A stretch of 64,000 nt of DNA from Flavobacterium frigidimaris (lineage in GTDB: Bacteria; Bacteroidota; Bacteroidia; Flavobacteriales; Flavobacteriaceae): contig FQWG01000002.1 in NCBI GenBank assembly GCA_900129595.1, positions 372,001 to 436,000 of the forward strand, in the 5' to 3' direction. The notes beneath the pieces were generated by a model. It worked only from the letters and a program-made list of their open reading frames with translations, made no database searches and had not been told where the DNA came from. This document shows, piece after piece, positions 52,616-62,459 of this stretch; positions within the stretch are counted from its first letter, which is position 1, and the number at the start of each line of letters is the position of its first letter. Position numbers and translations under genes: made by a program.

Positions 52616-53323
52616 ATGTTTCAGTTCAAGCAATTTTCTGTACAACAAGATAAAACTGCCATGAAAGTTGGCACAGATGGCGTTTTATTGGGCTCTTGGG
52701 CTCCAATTTATCATAATCCGTTTAGTATATTAGATATTGGTGCAGGAACCGGAATTATTGCTTTGATGCTTGCTCAGCGCACTCACGCGGAACAAATTGA
52801 TGCGCTTGAAATCGATGAAGATGCATACGAACAAGCCGTTGATAATTTCGAAAACTCTCCCTGGAGCGATCGTTTATTTTGTTTTCATGCCGGTTTGGAT
52901 GAATTTATCGAAGAGCCGGAAGATGAATACGATCTGATTGTTTCAAATCCTCCTTTTTATTCAGAAGATTATAAAACCGACAACGAACAACGTGATCTAG
53001 CCCGTTTTCAAGATGCCATGCCTTTTGAAGAACTAGTTGAAGCTGCCGATTTATTCCTTTCTGAAAACGGAATATTTGCCGTTATCCTTCCGTTCAAAGA
53101 AGAAGCAAACTTTATTTCTTTAGCCAAAGAATCAGAATTATATCCCGTAAAAATTACCAGAGTAAAAGGAACACCAACTTCAACAATAAAAAGAAGCTTA
53201 TTGGCTTTTAGCCGAAATGAAAATCCGGAAATTGAAATCGATGAGCTAACAATCGAAATAGACAGGCATGTTTATACTCCTGAATATATTGATTTGACTA
53301 AAGATTTTTATCTGAAATTCTAA
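52616..53323 (+). CDS. trmN6: tRNA1(Val) A37 N6-methyltransferase family protein
   Basis: A 235-residue SAM-dependent enzyme modifying adenine 37 in tRNA. The SAM motif LDIGAGTGIIALMLAQR and the catalytic adenine-methylase motif VSNPPFYSEDY (NPPF) are diagnostic. FKQFSVQQDKTAMKVGTDGV is the family's N-terminal signature. It is the last gene of the rpsP-rimM cluster and overlaps the end of the convergent HlyD gene by 4 bases, so it ends without space for its own terminator. Confidence 0.9.
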   Translation: MFQFKQFSVQQDKTAMKVGTDGVLLGSWAPIYHNPFSILDIGAGTGIIALMLAQRTHAEQIDALEIDEDAYEQAVDNFENSPWSDRLFCFHAGLDEFIEEPEDEYDLIVSNPPFYSEDYKTDNEQRDLARFQDAMPFEELVEAADLFLSENGIFAVILPFKEEANFISLAKESELYPVKITRVKGTPTSTIKRSLLAFSRNENPEIEIDELTIEIDRHVYTPEYIDLTKDFYLKF

Positions 53324-54612
53324 ACCTGCTCAAAAATACTTTTGAACTGATATAAAATCCTTTCTATTAGTCGCAAATCTTCAGTTACGATTTCAGCACT
53401 TCCTTTCATTTCCTGCTGAAAAACAATTCGTTTTTTATAAGACGTCAGCAATCCGTTTGGAAGGGCAACATCTAATAATAAATTTCCATCTTTATCGGGA
53501 ACCAGAGAAATGTTTCTGATCTTGCCTTTTAGCACACCAAACTCCCGATCAGGGAAATTTGCTAATCTGATATTGACTACTTGCCCTACTTTTATTTTAC
53601 CGGAATTCAATGCCGGTGCTTTTACTTTTCCAACAAAACCATTTTTTGTATCCGGAATAATAGAAAAAACATTATCGCCCACATTTATCGTTTGATTTTC
53701 TGTCCAGACCTGCAAAAAAGTAACTACGCCACTTACGGAAGATTTTAGGGTATAAGCCATTTCCCAATCTTTTATTACTTTTTTAAGCTGATAAAAAGAT
53801 TGGGCCATGTTCCTGCCTAAGTTAACTTCTTCTTTAGTACCGCTTATCTGCGAATTCCGACTTAATTTTGAATTATCAATCAAAGAGGACTTTAACTGTG
53901 AAATAGACGTCAAAAGGCTTTTATAACTCTTTTGAGCCTGGAGATAACCTAATTTTTTAGCTTCCATCTCCTGAGCCGAAATAATCCCTTTATTGAACAA
54001 GGTTTCAAAACGGGAAATTTCATTTTTCTGAAGCTGCAATTCGCTCTCGTTGATTACTTTTTGCTGCTGAAGAATCTCCAGCCTTTCTTTTATCTGAACT
54101 TTTTCAGAAACCTGTGCTCTGTTTTCGACTGCAAAAGGCTGCAGGTCTTTATTCAGCTGTTCGGCCTGATAATCTTTCTGGAAAACGGCAAAAGCGCTTT
54201 CAATTTCTCCCAGTTGTGTATTTTTTAGCAAGTCAAACGGAAATGCTTTTTCAGGATTATTGATATCATATTGATCAACGATCTTTTTCAGTAAAAAGAC
54301 ATCTTTATAATTGGCTGTATTTTCGATAATCGCCAGTGTACTGTTTTTTGCAACTATCGATTTGTCTTTTACCAGAATAGCTTCTATACGCCCTGAAGAT
54401 TTAGAAACTATTTTTTCCGGCGGAATATTGGTGGTAATTACAATTTCAGTGTTTACAACGTCCGGATATTTAATAAACCAGGATACAAAAAACAACATAA
54501 AAATAATTACGAATATCAAAACAGTTCCCCAACGAATCATCCAGTGCGGTACTTTGGTGAGAATGTCCTGAACCTCTTCACTTCTTAGTTCGAATGTAGT
54601 GTCTTCTGCCAT
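53320..54612 (-). CDS. HlyD-family adaptor of the peptide exporter
   Basis: A 430-residue membrane-fusion protein. One membrane helix (about 24-49) follows a short cytoplasmic tail, then a lipoyl-like half, a long coiled coil (about 165-255, QLQKNEISRFETLFNKGIIS), a second lipoyl-like half (SSVSGVVTFLQVW) and a beta-barrel. It starts 3 bases after the ABC transporter gene, so they form a transcriptional and functional pair. It bridges the ABC exporter to an outer-membrane TolC-like channel not encoded here. Its cargo is likely the double-glycine peptides of this locus. Confidence 0.87.
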   Translation of the reverse strand: MAEDTTFELRSEEVQDILTKVPHWMIRWGTVLIFVIIFMLFFVSWFIKYPDVVNTEIVITTNIPPEKIVSKSSGRIEAILVKDKSIVAKNSTLAIIENTANYKDVFLLKKIVDQYDINNPEKAFPFDLLKNTQLGEIESAFAVFQKDYQAEQLNKDLQPFAVENRAQVSEKVQIKERLEILQQQKVINESELQLQKNEISRFETLFNKGIISAQEMEAKKLGYLQAQKSYKSLLTSISQLKSSLIDNSKLSRNSQISGTKEEVNLGRNMAQSFYQLKKVIKDWEMAYTLKSSVSGVVTFLQVWTENQTINVGDNVFSIIPDTKNGFVGKVKAPALNSGKIKVGQVVNIRLANFPDREFGVLKGKIRNISLVPDKDGNLLLDVALPNGLLTSYKKRIVFQQEMKGSAEIVTEDLRLIERILYQFKSIFEQV

Positions 54613-54615
54613 GAT

Positions 54616-56808
54616 TTAATTTCCTAATTGTAACTGATTTTTAACCAACTCAAAATAATTTCCTTTTTGTTCTACCAAAGCTGCGTGATTTCCTATTTCG
54701 ATGATTTTTCCTTTGTCTAAAACTACAATCTGATCTGCATTCATAACGGTGCTTAACCTGTGCGCAATAACAATTACCGTTTTATTCTTAAAGAAAACAT
54801 CGAGTTTTTGCATAATTTCTTTTTCATTGTTAGCATCTAAAGCCGATGTAGCTTCATCAAAAAACAATATTTCAGGATTTTTATACACTGCTCTGGCAAT
54901 TAACAAACGTTGTTTTTGCCCTGTACTCATCCCCACGCCTTCTGCACCAATTTTAGTGTTATAGCCCAATGGCAAACCACTGACATATTCTTTTATATTG
55001 GCAACATCTGCTGCATATACCAATCTTTCCTTATCCACTTTATCTACTCCAATAGCGATATTATTGGCAATGGTATCACTAAAAATAAACCCCTCTTGCA
55101 TTACTGCCCCAATGTTGGACCGCCAGGCTTTTTGCGAAATATTTTTAAGCTGTGTGTTTCCTATAGTAACTTCTCCTTTTTCAGGTTCGTAAAATTTAAG
55201 AAGTAATTTCATTAAGGTCGTTTTTCCACTTCCGCTAACACCAACAATCGCAGTTACTTTATTGGCCGGGATTTTCAGGGTGAGATCATCCAAAACAGGA
55301 ATATCAGATCCCAGATAACGATAGGAAAGATTCTTTATATCAATATCACAATCATACGGAACATCACTGGTCTGATGAACCTCTTGTTGTGTTTCATCTT
55401 CTTTCTCATGAATTTCAGACAATCTGGCCAATGATATTTTAGCATCCTGAAGTTCTCTCACAAATTCTATAAGCTGAGTGATTGGCCCGTTTAAACTTCC
55501 TACGATCGAACTTATCGCCAGCATCATCCCCAACGTTATAGAACCATCAATTACCAATTTTGCAGAAAGAAATATAATGAAGATATTTTTCAATTCATTG
55601 ATTACTGAGGAACCAATCGTTTGTGTCTGTTCTAAAACCAACCCTTTTATAGAAACCCGAAACAATCTTGCCTGAACATATTCCCACCCCCAACGTTTTT
55701 GTTTTTCGGCATTGTGAAGCTTGATTTCCTGCATTCCGTTAATGAGCTCCATGACTTTGCTTTGCTCTTGCGAAACTTCTGCAAAACGTTTGTAATCCAG
55801 AACTTCTCTTCGTTTTAAGAATAGCGTAATCCATCCAAAATAAAGTATACTTCCTGCAAAAAACACAAAAAATATCTGAAGATTAAAATAAGCCAAAACA
55901 CCTCCCATAACGAACATGTTGATTACAGAAAACAAAACGTTTAACGAGGATGTAGTCAGTATTTTTTCGATTCTGCGATGATCGTTGATACGCTGCATAA
56001 TGTCTCCTGTCATTCGCACATCAAAAAATGAAATAGGCAGGTTCATTAATTTAATGAAGAAATCTGAAATCAGCGAAATATTGATTCTGGTAGAAAGATG
56101 GAGCAAGATCCAGCTCCTGATAAGTTCTAATCCTGTTCTCCCGGCAAAAAGGAACAGTTGCGCAAAAAGAATGAGATAGATAAAATGAATGTTCTGATTC
56201 TGAATCCCAACATCGACAATACTTTGAGTTAAAAAAGGAAAAATTAACTGTATTAAACTACTCGCCAATAAACCTATGCTCAATTGAATTAAAAATAATT
56301 TATATCGCAATACATACTGCGACAATAATCTAAATCCTAATCCTTTATTTTCCTCTTTATCAAATTCTGACTGAAAAAACTTTGGTGAAGCTTCAATCAG
56401 CAACGCAATACCTTCCTGAGTTGAATCATCTGCATTGTTTCCTATCCAAAATTTAAGAAAATCATGTTTGTTATATTCAATTAAACCAAAAGCCGGATCA
56501 GAAATATAATAGGTATTTTTTTTTATTTTATAAAGTACTACATAATGGTTTTTATTCCAGTGTAAAATACAGGGTAATGGCGCTTCTTCTAATCGTTCTA
56601 AGTTTAATTTTACCCCCAGAGTTCTAAACCCAACTTTTTCTGCCGCATCACTCAAAAAAAGCAAATTACTTCCTTCACGAGTGGTTTCACTTGCGTCGCG
56701 GAGTTCCTGAATATTAATTGTTTTTCCGTAGTGCTTTGCGATTATTTTTAAGCATGTAGGACCGCAATCTTTATGATCTGCTTGTTTATAATGGGTAAAT
56801 TTTTTCAA
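54616..56808 (-). CDS. peptidase-containing ABC exporter (C39, bacteriocin type)
   Basis: A 730-residue PCAT that cleaves double-glycine leaders and exports the mature peptide. The N-terminal C39 domain has Gln9 and catalytic Cys15 in KQADHKDCGPTCL, with His and Asp in LHWNKNHYVV and YYISDPAFGL. Six membrane helices lie at about 165-440. The nucleotide-binding domain has Walker A GVSGSGKTTL, a modified signature MSTGQKQRLLIARAV and Walker B EILFFDEATSALD. It is followed by its adaptor. A -7 box (TATTTTTG, minus strand, 56865-56872) lies between it and a terminator upstream. It can thus be transcribed apart from the peptide genes. Confidence 0.92.
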   Translation of the reverse strand: MKKFTHYKQADHKDCGPTCLKIIAKHYGKTINIQELRDASETTREGSNLLFLSDAAEKVGFRTLGVKLNLERLEEAPLPCILHWNKNHYVVLYKIKKNTYYISDPAFGLIEYNKHDFLKFWIGNNADDSTQEGIALLIEASPKFFQSEFDKEENKGLGFRLLSQYVLRYKLFLIQLSIGLLASSLIQLIFPFLTQSIVDVGIQNQNIHFIYLILFAQLFLFAGRTGLELIRSWILLHLSTRINISLISDFFIKLMNLPISFFDVRMTGDIMQRINDHRRIEKILTTSSLNVLFSVINMFVMGGVLAYFNLQIFFVFFAGSILYFGWITLFLKRREVLDYKRFAEVSQEQSKVMELINGMQEIKLHNAEKQKRWGWEYVQARLFRVSIKGLVLEQTQTIGSSVINELKNIFIIFLSAKLVIDGSITLGMMLAISSIVGSLNGPITQLIEFVRELQDAKISLARLSEIHEKEDETQQEVHQTSDVPYDCDIDIKNLSYRYLGSDIPVLDDLTLKIPANKVTAIVGVSGSGKTTLMKLLLKFYEPEKGEVTIGNTQLKNISQKAWRSNIGAVMQEGFIFSDTIANNIAIGVDKVDKERLVYAADVANIKEYVSGLPLGYNTKIGAEGVGMSTGQKQRLLIARAVYKNPEILFFDEATSALDANNEKEIMQKLDVFFKNKTVIVIAHRLSTVMNADQIVVLDKGKIIEIGNHAALVEQKGNYFELVKNQLQLGN

Positions 56809-57081
56809 ATTTAATGTATGAATTAAATCATTATCAAAATATAATATTCTTATCGTGTATCTTACAAAAATATGATATTTACTTACTATTAAGTTAATTA
56901 TTTTCGATTTCTACAACGATTTTAGGTAATACGCTTTAAACTGGTGAATTAGCTTTACCAAGATACCTCAAAATGAGGTTTCACAAAAAAAAATAAACTT
57001 AGGGAATATATTTTAAAGAATACCTGAAAACAATTATCCCCTGCAATAAAAGCCTCAAAAGAAACTCTATCTCTTAAGAAA
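56809..57081. other. upstream region of the ABC exporter
   Basis: AT-rich stretch of about 270 bases. On the minus strand TATTTTTG at 56865-56872 is a candidate -7 box. No gene or repeat was recognised. Confidence 0.5.
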
Positions 57082-57117
57082 CAAAAAAAAACAGAGAAGA
57101 TATTCATCTTCTCTGTT
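57082..57117 (-). terminator. terminator between peptide genes and exporter
   Basis: AACAGAGAAGAT and ATCTTCTCTGTT pair perfectly around ATTC (57090-57117), followed on the minus strand by a T run (57082-57090). It should end transcripts that come from the oxidase and peptide genes. Confidence 0.85.
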
Positions 57118-57261
57118 TAGGTATTTAAAAACATATTTATTAGAAATACAATTTCTGTAGGACATGGCACTGGCTAACCCTAACCAAATAAAAATCAAAC
57201 CAGTGGCCAATTTTCCTAAAGAATCCCAACACCAATCATCAATGTGGGGAAAATTGCTCAA
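57118..57261 (-). other. possible remnant of a membrane peptide gene
   Basis: On the minus strand a frame reads SNFPHIDDWCWDSLGKLATG, then LIFIWLGLASAM. It has no ATG, and its far end would cross the terminator at 57082-57117, so it is not a normal gene. Its tryptophan-rich and hydrophobic character and its position between the peptide and exporter genes would suit the core of a decayed bacteriocin precursor. A stop precedes it and no double-glycine leader is visible. Confidence 0.25.
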
Positions 57262-57349
57262 TGTTCCACGATCGAGCGCCTACAAATTAAAAAAAACATG
57301 ACTAAATTCTAAAAAAGGCTGTACTGTATTTCTCTTAAAACGTTAAAAA

Positions 57350-57541
57350 TTAACAACAAAGACGGTTTGTATCACAAATACCTGGCAACGTATTTACGGG
57401 ACAAGTTCCGCCTGCGGATATCAAAACACATCCAGCTTCAATTGCATAAATCCAACATTCAGGAATTCCTCCTTTTATTGTTTTTTGCTCATTTTTGCTG
57501 ATATGCTGAGCACTCTCTAAATTCAAAATTTTCTTTAACAT
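57350..57541 (-). CDS. double-glycine precursor with a six-cysteine peptide (A)
   Basis: A 63-residue precursor. The leader MLKKILNLESAQHISKNEQK ends TIKGG, a typical double-glycine cleavage site for a C39 exporter. The mature part, 38 residues (IPECWIYAIEAGCVLISAGG, then TCPVNTLPGICDTNRLCC), contains six cysteines, presumably paired in disulfides. It follows the peptide B gene and the thiol-oxidase gene on the same strand and precedes the terminator and the exporter. No modification enzyme other than the oxidase is near. Function, bacteriocin or signal, is unknown. Confidence 0.75.
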   Translation of the reverse strand: MLKKILNLESAQHISKNEQKTIKGGIPECWIYAIEAGCVLISAGGTCPVNTLPGICDTNRLCC

Positions 57542-57597
57542 CTTATAAGATATTGCAATTCAAGATTCAACTATTTTATAGCTATCTGCATCTAATT

Positions 57598-57810
57598 TTA
57601 ACACGGAGCCATTAATATTGAACATTGATTGGATCCAATATATGCCGGTCTTAAATTATACGGATAGGCCAAACATTGAGCTTCTGTGGCACGGAATACA
57701 ACAAACTCATTACACTGACCATCTGGCGGAATACTTCCTCCGTTTATACTTTTTTGCTCAGGTATACCCAACGCTTCAGCTCCGGGTAAGTTTAAAATGT
57801 TTTTTATCAT
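57598..57810 (-). CDS. double-glycine precursor with a four-cysteine peptide (B)
   Basis: A 70-residue precursor. The leader MIKNILNLPGAEALGIPEQK is followed by SINGG. The mature part of 45 residues, beginning SIPPDGQCNEFVVFRATEAQ, contains four cysteines and ends in MAPC. The leader is related to that of peptide A (IKNILNL versus LKKILNL at the start), while the cores differ. The ATG at 57808-57810 directly starts the leader; the longer frame to 57843 is not needed. It lies 92 bases after the thiol-oxidase gene. Confidence 0.72.
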   Translation of the reverse strand: MIKNILNLPGAEALGIPEQKSINGGSIPPDGQCNEFVVFRATEAQCLAYPYNLRPAYIGSNQCSILMAPC

Positions 57811-57902
57811 AATTTCATGATTTGTTTGTGAGTTATACTTCAATCATTTACAGACATTTGAAGCTGTATGTCTCCATTACGCAAAAATATTTTTAGTAAG
57901 CA

Positions 57903-59462
57903 CTATGCGGTCTTTTTTTCAAGAATCTCAATTTCTTCAACAAAATCATTTAAAAAATATTTCAATTCACTGAGTTCATATTCATTTGGAAAAACTCTTT
58001 CATTTACAATTTTAACGGGTGTATAATTAAAATTATTCTTAGAGCACCACTCATATTGTTTTTGTATTTCCTGGGTGATCATCATACTAACGGAATCAAC
58101 ATTCCATTTTTTCAACCATTTTTTAAGACCTATTTTTTTAATATGCCAGTCTGATATCGCTTCAACCGTTTTTCCTGGAGTTACTCTATTTATTGTCAAA
58201 AGTCTTTCTACAACAGATTTATATGGATTCTCTGCATTTTCGGGATTAATATTGAACAAAATATTTAGAAAAATTTTGTCCGGAAATCTTAAAACCAAAT
58301 CAAACGCTTCCTGAAATGTTTTATGACAATGCTCACAACTTGGACTTATAATAATAGAAAGCTTAACTGCAGCATTTCTGTTTCCAAAAGTCAGACCTCT
58401 CAGATCCTCAAATCCACTAGTGTAAGAAACTTTTTTTGATAAGAAATTTAATAATGAATAATTTCTTTTAAACTTTTTCATCTCTTTAAGTAAATTCTCA
58501 GTACCCAGAATATTTTTTATCACTGTTTTTAATCCCAGCCACATAGGAATAAGAAGCGCTACAGAGAATAAAAACGGAAACACATCATAAAAACTGAAGC
58601 TTAACGTAAACAAATCTGAAGCAAACCATATAACACTTTGTATAAAAATTAAAGCTGAAACGGCCAGACACATTACGCACCATTTTTGAATTTCAAATTT
58701 TTGAATCCATATAGAGGATACAATTACCGGTATCGCCAATAAACTTAAAAAACCAACGAAAATTGCCGATTGTAAAGGCTGAACTAAAATGGCTATTACA
58801 CTTGAACCAAAGAAAATAAGGGGCAAATCTGAAAAACTAAGCCATTTATTATTAATTCCTTCTTTAAAACTAATCACAGAATTACAAGACGAATCTGTAC
58901 TCAGGTTACAAAACTTTGAAATAATGCTATTTTTAAAACCTAATTTTTCCTGAACTATAAAAACACTCACTATAAATCCTAAAACGGATGTTGTTAAAAA
59001 AACAAGACTAAAAAGATTATAGACGTTATAGAAAACAGACAAACCAACCAAAAGCAAAAGAGGCAGAAAATATTTTAGCCAACTAAATTCAATTTTTAAA
59101 TTTTCTCTGGCAATAACATTATTTGGTTCTATTGCAACTATTACTCCATTCCAGTCTAAAAGAAACTTCTCATACGATAATTTTAAACTTCCTTTTTTGA
59201 TTGTATTAATACGTACAAAATCTTTAGCCTTTTCTACCAATATAAGTTCGTCTTTGAAATAGGCTAAAAAATTGGATGGCAAATCTACTATCTGTTCTTT
59301 CGAAACTCTTACTGCAGCATTCTCTACAGACAATAAATCCAAAGAGTCTGTTATCGCAAATAAACTAGGATAATTTGGATGAGAAAGAAACAAATCCTTA
59401 AACTCATTTTTGATTTCCGAGTATCTATTTATTTGTAGAAATTTTTGGACAAGTTTTAACAT
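57903..59462 (-). CDS. VKOR/thioredoxin membrane thiol oxidase with degenerate C39-like N-terminus
   Basis: A 519-residue membrane protein. Residues 1-115 resemble a C39 peptidase domain (HPNYPSLFAITDSLDLLSVE), but without a catalytic cysteine. The vitamin K epoxide reductase domain (about 130-310) has Cys185, Cys193 and the active pair in WCVMCL (Cys262, Cys265). The last part (about 355-505) is a DsbA-like thioredoxin fold with SCEHCH (Cys376, Cys379). VKOR-Trx fusions make disulfides using quinone as acceptor. Beside cysteine-rich precursors and a peptide exporter, its likely role is to oxidise the exported peptides. The dead C39 domain may hold leader peptides. Confidence 0.8.
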   Translation of the reverse strand: MLKLVQKFLQINRYSEIKNEFKDLFLSHPNYPSLFAITDSLDLLSVENAAVRVSKEQIVDLPSNFLAYFKDELILVEKAKDFVRINTIKKGSLKLSYEKFLLDWNGVIVAIEPNNVIARENLKIEFSWLKYFLPLLLLVGLSVFYNVYNLFSLVFLTTSVLGFIVSVFIVQEKLGFKNSIISKFCNLSTDSSCNSVISFKEGINNKWLSFSDLPLIFFGSSVIAILVQPLQSAIFVGFLSLLAIPVIVSSIWIQKFEIQKWCVMCLAVSALIFIQSVIWFASDLFTLSFSFYDVFPFLFSVALLIPMWLGLKTVIKNILGTENLLKEMKKFKRNYSLLNFLSKKVSYTSGFEDLRGLTFGNRNAAVKLSIIISPSCEHCHKTFQEAFDLVLRFPDKIFLNILFNINPENAENPYKSVVERLLTINRVTPGKTVEAISDWHIKKIGLKKWLKKWNVDSVSMMITQEIQKQYEWCSKNNFNYTPVKIVNERVFPNEYELSELKYFLNDFVEEIEILEKKTA

Positions 59463-59722
59463 CTTTTCGAATCTTTAAAATCATAATTACACTGCAAATA
59501 TTATTGTTTTTACCGAGAAAAAAACGTCGCGCACACACATTTTATCAATTATACTACATACAATTTATAAATTATATCAGTCTGAATAAAACACACAATT
59601 ACCTGTATTACAGCTTTTTATGCTTGTAATTTTTCATCAAAAACCCTCAAAACCCTATTCTCGACTAAGGGTTTTGCTTTTTGTCTAGTTTTGATAAATC
59701 ATTAACCCTAACACATAAAAAC
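59463..59722. other. divergent intergenic region between oxidase and peptide array
   Basis: About 260 bases. A terminator-like hairpin AAAACCCT...AGGGTTTT (59649-59675) with following Ts, and a weaker one (TTACAGC...GCTTGTAA, about 59610-59635), face the plus strand although no plus-strand gene precedes them. They may act as an attenuator or block read-through. A -7 box lies at 59686-59693. Confidence 0.5.
59686..59693 (+). promoter_or_regulatory. -7 box of the small-peptide array
   Basis: TAGTTTTG fits TAnnTTTG and lies 30 bases upstream of the first precursor gene. A -33 element at the right spacing is not evident. Confidence 0.45.
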
Positions 59723-59857
59723 ATGACAAATCAATCATTAAGATTTGAAGATTTTCAAATCGAAAAATTATCTAAAAATCAACAAAAAACAGTTCAGGGA
59801 GGAGAAAACAATGACTCAATTGACCCAAGCAAAGGAACTGGAAAAGGAAGTAATTAA
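59723..59857 (+). CDS. double-glycine peptide precursor, copy 1
   Basis: A 44-residue precursor beginning MTNQSLRFEDFQIEKLSKNQ, then QKTVQGG, the predicted cleavage site. The mature peptide is 17 residues, ENNDSIDPSKGTGKGSN. It has no cysteine and a strongly hydrophilic, Gly/Lys/Ser-rich composition, unlike pore-forming bacteriocins. It is the first of six tandem copies on the plus strand. The C39 ABC exporter in this locus could process it. Confidence 0.8.
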   Translation: MTNQSLRFEDFQIEKLSKNQQKTVQGGENNDSIDPSKGTGKGSN

Positions 59858-59890
59858 TACTAAAATCAATAATACTAAAACATACAATTT

Positions 59891-60025
59891 ATGAAAAATT
59901 ATAAAGCAACATTCGAAGAATTTGAAGCAAAAAAAATGTCTAAAAATGAACAAAAAACTATCCATGGTGGAGGTGGAGACGATCCTATCGATCCAAGTAA
60001 AGGAACTGGTAAAGGAAGTAATTAA
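59891..60025 (+). CDS. double-glycine peptide precursor, copy 2
   Basis: A 44-residue precursor whose leader is the most divergent of the intact copies (MKNYKATFEEFEAKKMSKNE, then QKTIHGG). The mature part GGDDPIDPSKGTGKGSN starts with two further glycines. The C-terminal IDPSKGTGKGSN is unchanged, so the leader varies more than the product, as expected if the product is what is selected. Confidence 0.8.
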   Translation: MKNYKATFEEFEAKKMSKNEQKTIHGGGGDDPIDPSKGTGKGSN

Positions 60026-60043
60026 TCATAAAAACAATAAATC

Positions 60044-60169
60044 ATGACAACTAAAAAACTAACATTCGAAGATTTTCAAATCGAAAAATTATCTAAAAAT
60101 CAACAAAAAACAGTTCAGGGAGGAGATGACATCGATCCAAGTAAAGGAACTGGTAAAGGAAGTAATTAA
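60044..60169 (+). CDS. double-glycine peptide precursor, copy 3
   Basis: A 41-residue precursor (MTTKKLTFEDFQIEKLSKNQ, then QKTVQGG). Mature peptide DDIDPSKGTGKGSN, 14 residues. The coding sequence is identical to copy 4, base for base, and the repeat unit is 145 bases, pointing to a recent tandem duplication. Confidence 0.82.
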   Translation: MTTKKLTFEDFQIEKLSKNQQKTVQGGDDIDPSKGTGKGSN

Positions 60170-60188
60170 ATAATAAAAACAATAAATC

Positions 60189-60314
60189 ATGACAACTAAA
60201 AAACTAACATTCGAAGATTTTCAAATCGAAAAATTATCTAAAAATCAACAAAAAACAGTTCAGGGAGGAGATGACATCGATCCAAGTAAAGGAACTGGTA
60301 AAGGAAGTAATTAA
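60189..60314 (+). CDS. double-glycine peptide precursor, copy 4
   Basis: Identical to copy 3 over all 126 coding bases, giving the same leader and the same 14-residue product. The upstream spacer (ataaaaacaataaatc) is also shared. Two identical copies would raise dosage of one product. Confidence 0.82.
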   Translation: MTTKKLTFEDFQIEKLSKNQQKTVQGGDDIDPSKGTGKGSN

Positions 60315-60332
60315 TCAATAACACACAAAGAC

Positions 60333-60461
60333 ATGAAAAATAATAAATTGAATTTTGAAGATTTTCAAATCGAAAAATTATCTAAAAAACAACAAAAAAC
60401 AGTTCTGGGCGGAGACGAACCAATCGATCCAAGTAAAGGAACTGGCAAAGGAGCTAATTAA
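60333..60461 (+). CDS. double-glycine peptide precursor, copy 5
   Basis: A 42-residue precursor (MKNNKLNFEDFQIEKLSKKQ, then QKTVLGG). Mature peptide DEPIDPSKGTGKGAN, 15 residues. The only change in the conserved C-terminal block is Ser to Ala at the second-last position. The codons differ from the other copies (ggcaaaggagct versus ggtaaaggaagt), so it is an older copy under constraint. Confidence 0.8.
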   Translation: MKNNKLNFEDFQIEKLSKKQQKTVLGGDEPIDPSKGTGKGAN

Positions 60462-60475
60462 TTAATCAATAATTT

Positions 60476-60538
60476 ATGATAATTAAAAAACTAATATTCG
60501 AAGATTTCGAGATACAAAAATTGTCTAAAAAGCTCTAA
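60476..60538 (+). pseudogene. double-glycine precursor copy 6, decayed
   Basis: Begins MIIKKLIFEDFEIQKLSKKL and then meets TAA. Aligned with copy 5, the stop replaces the second Gln of KQQKTV (CAA to TAA). The downstream frame (KQIVSNHYNL) has lost both glycines and the mature peptide. The leader is recognisable, the product is gone. A weak terminator-like hairpin (AGTTT...AAACT then Ts) follows near 60688-60707. Confidence 0.7.
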
Positions 60539-60708
60539 AAACAGATTGTTAGCAATCACTACAATTTAATGTTTACAATTATAAGATTAGAAAAACTTCA
60601 AAAACTAACAATATTGAAGACAAATGACAGGAGAGAGAAATCTATCATGTATCAAAAATGGTAAACCAAATACTCAAAACCAAAAAAAATAGTTTCTAAA
60701 AACTTTTT

Positions 60709-61023
60709 TTAAATATTATTCGCAAATTGAGCTGGAGATACTCCAGTTCTTTTGCGAAATGATTTTGCAAATGATACTGCATTTTTAAATCCTACGCTTT
60801 CAGCAATGGCCTGAGTAGAATATTTACGATACATATGATTTGTGATCATTTCATTAATGACATAATTAATCTTAAGTTCATTAGAGTATTCTCCAAAAGA
60901 TTTACCAAATCGTTTATTTACAACATAAGATAAATAAGTAGTGTTCGTTTTTATCTTTTTAGCCACATAAGGCAAAGTAAAGTCGGCGTTTAAGTATTCA
61001 TGTTTACTTTCCAGGGCTAGCAA
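60709..61023 (-). pseudogene. C-terminal AraC-type DNA-binding part of the split TPR regulator
   Basis: 104 residues with no ATG at the start (TTG, reading LLALESKHEYLNADFTLPYV). They form an AraC/XylS helix-turn-helix pair (FGEYSNELKINYVI and STQAIAESVGFKNAVSFAKSF), ending RKRTGVSPAQFANNI. In Bacteroidota this domain is normally the last 100 residues of a TPR-membrane-AraC protein. Here it is in a different frame from the part encoded upstream. A single missing base (or a -1 frameshift) near 61035-61047 would join them through KENKIVEKLLALE. It may be a broken gene, a programmed frameshift, or a sequence error. Confidence 0.7.
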
Positions 61024-61031
61024 CTTCTCGA

Positions 61032-62459
61032 CTATCTTATTTTCTTTGCTTCATCAATACTTAAATTAACGTTTTCTTTCTTCAGATGAATCTCTTCTTC
61101 CGGTTCCAAATCCAGGACAATTTCCTCGGTTTCGGGTAAATTTTTCTTCTCAAGATTGGCTTTGAATTCTTCAATTAAGGCGTTCATTTTTTTATGTGCC
61201 TTATTTTTATCCCTTATATTTTTAATCAACAAGAATACAATAGCCACAAATAAAACGACATAAAAAACTTTCAGGGCTTTATTCAGAAAAACATCGTATT
61301 TATATTTCTCCTGAATAGTAACCATCTCATCGGTCAAATCTCCTACCCCTAATTTATAATTTACTTCTAAAACTTCCTCATTTAATTTTGCTTCTGATTT
61401 TTCGTAATTATCTAAATAAATTTTTGAATGTTTATAAGCCAGTTCAGGTTCCTTAAGTATATTGTAAATCTTTGCCTGATAATAATTAGATTTTAAATAA
61501 TCTACCTCATTGCTTTTTGTTTCAGCAGCAATAGAGTCTGTCTTTTTAAAAAAAACTAATGCCTTATCGTATTTCTTTGTTGTATAATACAGATCGCCTA
61601 AGTTATAATTCGCAGAACATAACATATCGGGCATATTATTTTGATCTGCCAGAAAAATAATATCGTAATAGGTTTTCTCAGCATTTGCATAATCTTTCTG
61701 CCAACTATAAATATTACCTAAACTTAATTTTGCTACAATCTTATTGTCCGGAAAATTTTGAGAATAACTAATTGTCTTTTTATAAAAATATTTAGCCGAA
61801 TCAAGCAAGACTGCTTGCTTTGCATTTTTCATATAATAATTTTCATATGAGCCTGCCAAAGTCAAATTGATATTACTTTTATTATTTAAAAATTGTTCTT
61901 TATTATAAACACTTTCATTTTTATCAACGAAATCATTAAGTTGTCTTAGATCTTTAATCGCTAAGCGATAATTACCTACTGCATCATTTATAGACGCAAT
62001 ATTATTCTTAAACTTTACTATTTGCACAATGTCCCTAATTTGCGTAGAAAGCTTTACTCCCTCTTGGTAGTTTTCAAGAGCCTTACTAAAATTACCTCTT
62101 TTCCATTCAGCCAGTCCCGCATAATTATACAGATAAGTTGTAAGTTGTACTTTATCGCGTGACTCAGGTATTTTTGCTAAATATTTTAATGCTAAGCTAT
62201 ATTTCTCTTTCGATTTATTAGTATTTCCCTCTAGCTGAGTCAAATAAGACAATGCCGCATTTGCAAAAGCCAAATGCTTATTATTGTTAGATTTTGCCAT
62301 CTGGTTAGCAAATACCATAGCACTATCTATATTGGCATTCGCCGTTAGACGAATTTTATCTTGTAATACTAAATACTCTTGTTCTGTCAAAGCATCTTTC
62401 TGCTGAGAAATTGCGGAATTCAGAACAAAAAAGAATAAAAAGGAGATGATCAGCCTCAT
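61032..62459 (-). CDS. TPR membrane protein, N-terminal part of an AraC-type peptide-locus regulator
   Basis: A 475-residue protein. A signal peptide (MRLIISFLFFFVLNSAISQQ) is followed by about eight TPR-like helical hairpins (35-380; for example NYAGLAEWKRGNFSKALENY and SANYNLGDLYYTTKKYDKAL). One membrane helix lies near 395-418 (KVFYVVLFVAIVFLLIKN), then a charged linker ends LSIDEAKKIR. The TPR part should be periplasmic and the lost AraC part cytoplasmic. This is the shape of one-component membrane regulators of Bacteroidota. It converges on the array of secreted peptides, so peptide sensing is an attractive guess. A -7 box (TATTTTTG, minus strand, 62480-62487) precedes it. Confidence 0.8.
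   Translation of the reverse strand: MRLIISFLFFFVLNSAISQQKDALTEQEYLVLQDKIRLTANANIDSAMVFANQMAKSNNNKHLAFANAALSYLTQLEGNTNKSKEKYSLALKYLAKIPESRDKVQLTTYLYNYAGLAEWKRGNFSKALENYQEGVKLSTQIRDIVQIVKFKNNIASINDAVGNYRLAIKDLRQLNDFVDKNESVYNKEQFLNNKSNINLTLAGSYENYYMKNAKQAVLLDSAKYFYKKTISYSQNFPDNKIVAKLSLGNIYSWQKDYANAEKTYYDIIFLADQNNMPDMLCSANYNLGDLYYTTKKYDKALVFFKKTDSIAAETKSNEVDYLKSNYYQAKIYNILKEPELAYKHSKIYLDNYEKSEAKLNEEVLEVNYKLGVGDLTDEMVTIQEKYKYDVFLNKALKVFYVVLFVAIVFLLIKNIRDKNKAHKKMNALIEEFKANLEKKNLPETEEIVLDLEPEEEIHLKKENVNLSIDEAKKIR

Follow-up and report, generated by a model that had tools for sequence, protein, structure and literature searches.

A candidate self-signalling circuit of exported peptides and a predicted one-piece TPR-AraC receptor at a C39 export locus of Flavobacterium

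The window analysed here, 64,000 nucleotides of DNA from Flavobacterium frigidimaris, contains a block (positions 53320-62459) in which genes for a C39 peptidase ABC exporter and a HlyD-type adaptor stand together with a VKOR/thioredoxin thiol oxidase, with precursors of cysteine-rich and cysteine-free peptides that carry double-glycine (GG) leaders, and with a regulator that combines tetratricopeptide repeats (TPR), a predicted transmembrane (TM) helix and an AraC-type helix-turn-helix (HTH) part. We think it probable that this locus forms a self-signalling circuit, in which an exported cysteine-free peptide would be recognized by a periplasmic TPR-TM-AraC receptor that switches on the divergent genes, and many Flavobacterium species likely signal to their own kind through the species-specific peptides of this locus. 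The reading is carried by the gene set and its order, by a conserved tandem repeat between the divergent genes, by peptide copies that are alike within each locus, and by coupled change of the peptide core and the TPR part.

A sequence-only reading of the window had placed the gene set in one block, and profile scans and open reading frames (ORFs) bear this out, with HlyD, the C39 exporter, VKOR, two cysteine-rich and five cysteine-free GG precursors (Table 1). It had also described the TPR/AraC regulator as convergent with the cysteine-free array. Indeed, the regulator (60709-62459) converges with the array, and its HTH_18 domain lies above the curated cut-off (53.0 vs 33.6 bits); position and domains thus stand, but the gene is split into two frames in this assembly. 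A search that used only the VKOR protein as query gave 90 Flavobacterium relatives, of which the best 80 were taken, among them the locus of Flavobacterium johnsoniae strain CI04 (L020); 75 of these 80 stretches extend as far as the regulator, the other five being cut by contig ends. In each of the 75, a full-length regulator of 580-593 residues is followed by one or more GG peptides and then by VKOR, and the peptides are always oriented toward the regulator. The peptide and the regulator, which the sequence-only reading had expected to occur together, do so in 75 of 75 loci; peptides are still visible in three of the five loci whose contig ends before the regulator. Leaders were found by reading all frames and with a hidden Markov model (HMM); in L026, L034 and L080 the array goes unnoticed with a simple regular expression for the leader, as do some copies in other loci.

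The 75 loci carry between one and seven peptide copies each, 223 in total, of which seven contain cysteine. The cores have a median length of 20 residues, consist mostly of Gly, Pro, Asn and Asp, and are hydrophilic. Their mean distance is 0.34 within a locus (60 multi-copy loci) vs 0.65 between loci, and cores that are uniform per locus and different between species have the look of a species-specific signal; gene conversion is the presumed cause of the uniformity. In the window, the five precursors (59723-60461) form a tandem repeat with a spacing of 144-168 nt, divergent from VKOR, in which third codon positions vary and the peptide end is constant, DPSKGTGKG(S/A)N. Genus-wide searches covered 299 Flavobacterium genomes. 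The peptide IDPSKGTGKGSN, earlier offered as a search motif for flavobacteria, was sought as degenerate DNA for DPSKGTGKG and occurs in one of the 299, its own genome; the literal motif fails as a search key because the core is species-specific. Weaker matches to the array profile in the own genome are C32 (E 0.003) and C28 (E 0.018), and by eye there is no sensor among the ORFs near C32.

Between VKOR and the array lies a tandem direct repeat of two half-sites, which the sequence-only reading had not mentioned. In all 80 loci compared, the window plus 79 relatives (the L081 stretch is too short), the half-sites are spaced by 23 bp. A run of 20 bases does not vary in any of 79 loci, the window among them, and in 78 of these it stands 77-79 bp from the VKOR start. 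Operators of the AraC family have directly repeated half-sites in tandem, at a distance of about two helical turns. A 30-bp stretch of the repeat, at no more than three mismatches, has a single match in each of 47 genomes among the 299, and likewise one in the own genome, while the reversed 30-bp pattern has no match among them. The regulator is present at 67% identity or more in all 47; one more genome (G099) has a regulator at such identity and a slightly altered repeat site. Because the site is single per genome and the regulator occurs in all 47, the circuit looks closed upon itself at the stringency of the 30-bp search, and the repeat is a plausible target for the AraC part.

Peptide core and TPR part change together. 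In a partial Mantel test on 66 loci with full exporter and adaptor, with VKOR, C39, HlyD and AcCoA as controls, the core correlated with the TPR part given all four controls (r 0.26, p 0.001), compared with 0.05 for VKOR, -0.05 for C39, 0.08 for HlyD (p 0.046) and 0.03 for AcCoA. The corresponding values for the leader were 0.20 with TPR, 0.24 with AcCoA, 0.18 with C39 (p 0.002) and 0.12 with HlyD; the pair tests gave -0.13 and -0.25 for leader and C39, and the Mantel signal between these two was hence set aside. Among 37 disjoint pairs of loci, the rank correlation of core and TPR was 0.92 (VKOR 0.81, AcCoA 0.58, leader 0.77). As the raw correlations of the core with control genes are also high, the case for coupling rests on the partial values: core and TPR given VKOR reached 0.75, as against 0.03 for core and VKOR given TPR. 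Pairs drawn from two other trees (33 each) gave 0.80 and 0.73 for core and TPR given the four genes, and 0.53 and 0.67 when the core was limited to its last 12 residues. In the disjoint pairs, core change thus follows TPR, not C39 or VKOR. L040 and L044, for instance, have different cores and a TPR distance of 0.28, with a VKOR distance of 0.03.

The two parts of the regulator evolve at different rates, with a mean distance among loci of 0.04 for the nearly frozen HTH part and 0.37 for the TPR part. The protein database holds four intact clusters of 583 residues with an HTH (P0002, P0004-P0006), which are 98-100% identical over the TPR-TM part, and a further cluster, P0003, of 489 residues for which no HTH domain is listed. 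A hydropathy scan of P0002 has its hydrophobic peak within residues 389-417, followed by basic residues. The AlphaFold model of P0002, made with a 60-row alignment (mean pLDDT 80.2, pTM 0.59; TPR mostly above 90, linker below 50), contains a TPR superhelix, and the solved structures that match it include NprR (24.6 in the apo form, 22.0 with peptide), RapF with peptide (24.3) and Rap with CSF (24.0). Sites that we take to be the ligand face of the TPR show more variation than the remaining A-helix sites (p 0.002).

The proposed circuit would run as follows. The C39 transporter would cut the cysteine-free precursors at the GG leader and export the peptides; an exported peptide would bind the predicted periplasmic TPR part of the membrane-bound regulator, the signal would pass through the TM helix, and the AraC DNA-binding end would activate the divergent genes from the tandem repeat. 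The VKOR operon (oxidase, cysteine-rich peptides and exporter) is the likeliest target because the half-sites lie ~75-115 bp upstream of the VKOR start codon, nearer to that operon, and its activation would give positive feedback on export; the cysteine-free array may be a second target. The cysteine-rich peptides would be the regulated payload, predicted to be bacteriocin-like with disulfides made by the VKOR protein, and the cysteine-free peptides the signal. The sequence-only reading had likewise made the cysteine-free peptide a secreted signal, the TPR part its sensor and the AraC part the output. Co-occurrence, core-TPR coupling and the repeat as a plausible AraC target speak for that proposal, while the literal motif and an intact regulator in this strain did not hold up. 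Less firmly, we lean towards a Flavobacterium-specific quorum class with pheromone arrays in concerted evolution, one-piece receptors and a dedicated operator, in which each species would be a pherotype and HTH-less duplicates would act as decoys or co-receptors. An order-wide search for the regulator (E 1e-60) found matches in 11 of 296 genomes and one of 91 genera, with four candidates scored per genome, so that distant members elsewhere are possible.

A number of observations weigh against the circuit. The regulator frame is broken in its own assembly (window 61024-61032), giving two ORFs; the break is either real or an assembly fault and, if real, the strain would make peptides yet fail to respond. 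The topology of the regulator was derived from the hydropathy scan and reading by eye, and a ~1.3-kDa peptide would have to re-enter through the outer membrane to arrive in the periplasm. The fold match is unspecific, since TPR proteins with other functions score as high or higher (25-29), and the model for that reason makes peptide binding by the regulator a possibility. Compared with the whole TPR domain, the presumed ligand-face sites are not clearly more variable (p 0.10), and their enrichment for coupling with the core is weak (p 0.04-0.05). The operator-like repeat was found at this locus only, and no wider regulon was seen. As for the coupling itself, to the high raw correlations with control genes and the p of 0.046 for HlyD are added a residual correlation of leader and TPR with the core held (0.33, 0.41), of the core with synonymous change in the C-terminal half of the regulator with TPR held (0.15, p 0.001), of core and AcCoA in the exporter-tree pairs (0.37, p 0.018), and of the last 12 core residues with AcCoA in both pair sets (0.34, 0.35). 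Since the leader tracks TPR, and the core tracks linked synonymous change and AcCoA, the coupling is partly linkage, with array and regulator gene travelling together, and some background remains.

The best placed of the alternatives, though unlikely, is that the cysteine-free peptides are bacteriocins or effectors and the TPR membrane protein an immunity or titrating partner, the HTH providing dose feedback, so that an arms race would mimic the coupling. Toxin-immunity pairs likewise predict a hypervariable core with a matching membrane partner, and the exporter and cysteine-rich peptides resemble a bacteriocin locus. Extra regulator-like copies occur in seven of the 75 loci, all seven with a single peptide, compared with eight of the other 68 (Fisher p 3e-6, uncorrected for kinship). 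In four of them (L058, L061, L067, L070) the extra copies are TPR-TM proteins of 422-451 residues that lack the HTH and stand between the full regulator and the single-peptide array; such copies are possible decoys, co-receptors or, as the bacteriocin explanation would have it, immunity proteins. Against this explanation stand the hydrophilic, Gly/Pro/Asn/Asp-rich cores, the presence of one or more HTH-bearing copies in every one of the 75 loci together with a conserved operator-like repeat, and, in our judgement, the multiple alike copies per locus, which suit a signal more than an arsenal.

Next in rank, and unlikely as well, is an explanation in which the regulator senses another ligand (cysteine-rich peptides, envelope state or something else), the cysteine-free peptides are a regulated product, and the coupling reflects co-transfer of neighbouring DNA. 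The leader and linked synonymous sites do follow TPR or core to some extent, as would be expected under co-transfer, and similar regulators seem abundant, with 75 first-look candidates in the own genome (four scored). Yet core and TPR keep a partial rho of 0.67 when the VKOR protein is held along with synonymous change, both in its gene and in the C-terminal half of the regulator, and this half lies between TPR and array; the coupling also persists when the leader is controlled together with the four genes (0.72 and 0.61 in the two pair sets). Moreover, the cysteine-rich peptides do not track TPR (-0.26 and -0.38, 23 pairs each).

That the cysteine-free peptides are precursors of radical-SAM-modified ribosomally synthesized and post-translationally modified peptides (RiPPs) is very improbable, and we rejected it: one of the five homologues found has 'rSAM-modified peptide' as its public name and copy 5, the best among three copies scanned, matches TIGR04149 weakly, but its score is below cut-off (23.3 vs 25 bits), no SPASM domain turned up in the own genome, which is 99.99% complete (8 of 14 controls were positive), and no maturase was found among ten scanned products or by eye in the other long ORFs of 51-64 kb. 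Graspetide and radical-SAM RiPP precursors of Bacteroidetes (PF14406, TIGR04149; PMC8939145) are alike in having a similar GG leader and in evolving fast, and unlike in that the window peptides fall below the model cut-offs and the own genome is without a SPASM domain. The leaders of copies 1, 2 and 5 are also weakly similar to NF047798 of NCBIfam ('bacteriocin-like protein', Chryseobacterium type), at 20.2, 20.9 and 15.7 bits with a cut-off of 23.5; this model consists of 18 leader positions and no core.

The self-signalling circuit can be compared with known systems. Most of what is known about peptide signalling comes from Gram-positive bacteria, and peptide pheromone export in Gram-negatives is reportedly discussed in a review. 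The ComC/BlpC systems of streptococci use a GG-leader inducing peptide, a C39 exporter and a bacteriocin regulon. Our locus has in common with them the GG-leader peptide, a C39 ABC exporter that would serve bacteriocin-like peptides too, and a specific signal. Whereas ComC/BlpC act through a histidine kinase and a response regulator, here we predict a one-piece TPR-AraC membrane receptor in a Gram-negative host with tandem signal genes; no histidine kinase or response regulator was found among ten scanned locus products or by eye in the other long ORFs of 51-64 kb. C39-type export of quorum peptides has been reported (PMC6363468). With the RRNPP family (Rap, NprR, PlcR, ComR) the regulator shares a TPR superhelix sensor, a likeness of fold class only, as other TPR proteins score alike. 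The HTH of RRNPP proteins, where present, is N-terminal, as opposed to the C-terminal AraC type here. In RRNPP systems the propeptide gene adjoins the receptor gene (PMC10075063), the same adjacency as here, and receptor and peptide are reported to coevolve (PMC8605241). RRNPP receptors are intracellular (PMC10075063), whereas here TPR and the C-terminal AraC HTH lie on either side of a TM helix, as judged by hydropathy, and the peptides have a GG leader. The Rap/Phr systems of Bacillus phages also have more than one pheromone copy, but several pheromones lie inside one propeptide there (PMC11343458), unlike the separate genes here, each with its own leader. Judged by its genes, the locus would work like a GG-peptide quorum system, yet it departs from ComC/Blp in the receptor and from RRNPP in two features.

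In open-licence PubMed Central, searched by title and start of abstract and leaving most subscription papers and bioRxiv outside, we found no paper describing the locus and no description of such a receptor in Bacteroidota. The locus offers a candidate signal, a candidate receptor and a DNA site with dozens of natural variants, which makes ligand specificity, pherotype switching and control of the bacteriocin-like export operon testable. If the circuit is true, the one-piece receptor would unite peptide sensing outside the inner membrane and DNA binding in a single protein.

Table 1. Features of the peptide export locus in the window (forward strand, +; reverse strand, -).
Feature	Position	Strand	Basis
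HlyD-type membrane fusion adaptor	53320..54612	-	PF13437, 50 bits; matched in 72/80 related loci
C39 peptidase ABC exporter, predicted GG-leader cutter	54616..56808	-	PF03412, 123.6 bits, and ABC domains; 76/80 related loci
Cysteine-rich GG-leader peptide, IPECW type	57350..57541	-	Like peptides seen by eye in several related loci
Second cysteine-rich GG-leader peptide	57598..57810	-	Sequence
VKOR/thioredoxin thiol oxidase	57903..59462	-	PF07884, 36.3 bits; WCVMC and CEHC motifs
Tandem direct repeat (two 17-bp half-sites, 23 bp apart), presumed regulator operator	59537..59576	+	
TAGTTTTG, presumed array promoter	59686..59693	+	Sequence; block conserved in locus alignment
Cysteine-free GG peptide, copy 1	59723..59857	+	Sequence
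Cysteine-free GG peptide, copy 2	59891..60025	+	Sequence
Cysteine-free GG peptide, copy 3	60044..60169	+	Sequence
Cysteine-free GG peptide, copy 4	60189..60314	+	Sequence
Cysteine-free GG peptide, copy 5	60333..60461	+	Sequence
Sixth copy, degenerate, leader only, early end	60476..60538	+	Sequence; additional to the sequence-only reading
AraC-type HTH part of regulator, own frame in assembly	60709..61023	-	PF12833, 53 bits
TPR superhelix and TM helix of regulator	61032..62459	-	PF13424, 43.2 bits; signal-peptide-like N-terminus by eye

The presumed array promoter, TAGTTTTG, fits what we take to be the Bacteroidota -7 consensus, TAnnTTTG. An attenuator, formed by a hairpin and T-run between VKOR and array, was considered and set aside: across 12 loci, compared by eye, the stem is not kept and TAGTTTTG mostly is. 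Rfam gave no match.

The exporter has DCGPTC in its N-terminus. The VKOR protein scored 20.1 bits with PF13462, under the cut-off, and its N-terminus matched the C39 profile (PF03412) over positions 46-132 of 133 only, at 18.1 bits with a cut-off of 22. With this partial match below cut-off and no cysteine before residue 185, the N-terminal part is predicted to be a non-catalytic C39-like domain. Some type I exporters need such domains for substrate recruitment (PMC6363468), and by analogy the N-terminus of the VKOR protein may bring GG leaders to the oxidase for disulfide formation. The leader HMM, built from cysteine-free leaders and therefore undercounting cysteine-rich peptides, detected one or more of the latter in 58 of 75 loci and picked up one of the two in the window. 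A run of 14 cysteine-rich GG-leader peptides behind one VKOR (L151:11648-15857) makes a large and varied candidate bacteriocin set.

Lastly, we looked at diverged homologues, comprising 17 genomes with the regulator at 42-54% identity and without a match to the 30-bp stretch (18 regions, 19 regulators, not counting an HTH fragment in L152 and the second, decayed regulator of L159). In 18 of the 19 cases the regulator is faced, on the opposite strand, by a small ORF with a similar leader (7 of the 18 detected by the leader HMM, the rest read by eye); 17 have cysteine-free cores and one contains cysteines (L154), and the cut site is GG in 12 and other residues in six. In L158 there is no VKOR behind regulator and peptide within its stretch. 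The nineteenth, L155, has by eye a graspetide-like insert where the peptide would stand. Here ATP-grasp-like and SPASM-like ORFs, also read by eye, and a cysteine-containing leader peptide (L155:9353-13952) replace the cysteine-free peptide and the tandem repeat. As a control, though a weak one in such AT-rich DNA, mononucleotide shuffles were scored as well; at 14 of 20 VKOR starts (diverged set and G099; L158 and L161 fell outside the test) the repeat scored above every one of 100 shuffles, in L157 by one point (26 vs 25). The six starts not above the shuffles are those of L151-L153, where one half-site is kept, of L155, and of the first VKORs of L150 and L162; no regulator stands directly before the L155 VKOR or these two first VKORs. 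Of 19 copies compared with P0002, 16 have an identity of 64-82% in the HTH part and 35-46% in the TPR part. Two VKOR genes each are present in L147, L150 and L162, and L147 carries two successive regulator-peptide-VKOR units, each module with its own peptide. A second module in decay is seen in L159 (12157-14000), where broken regulator and VKOR frames flank a GG peptide closely similar to that of the intact module.

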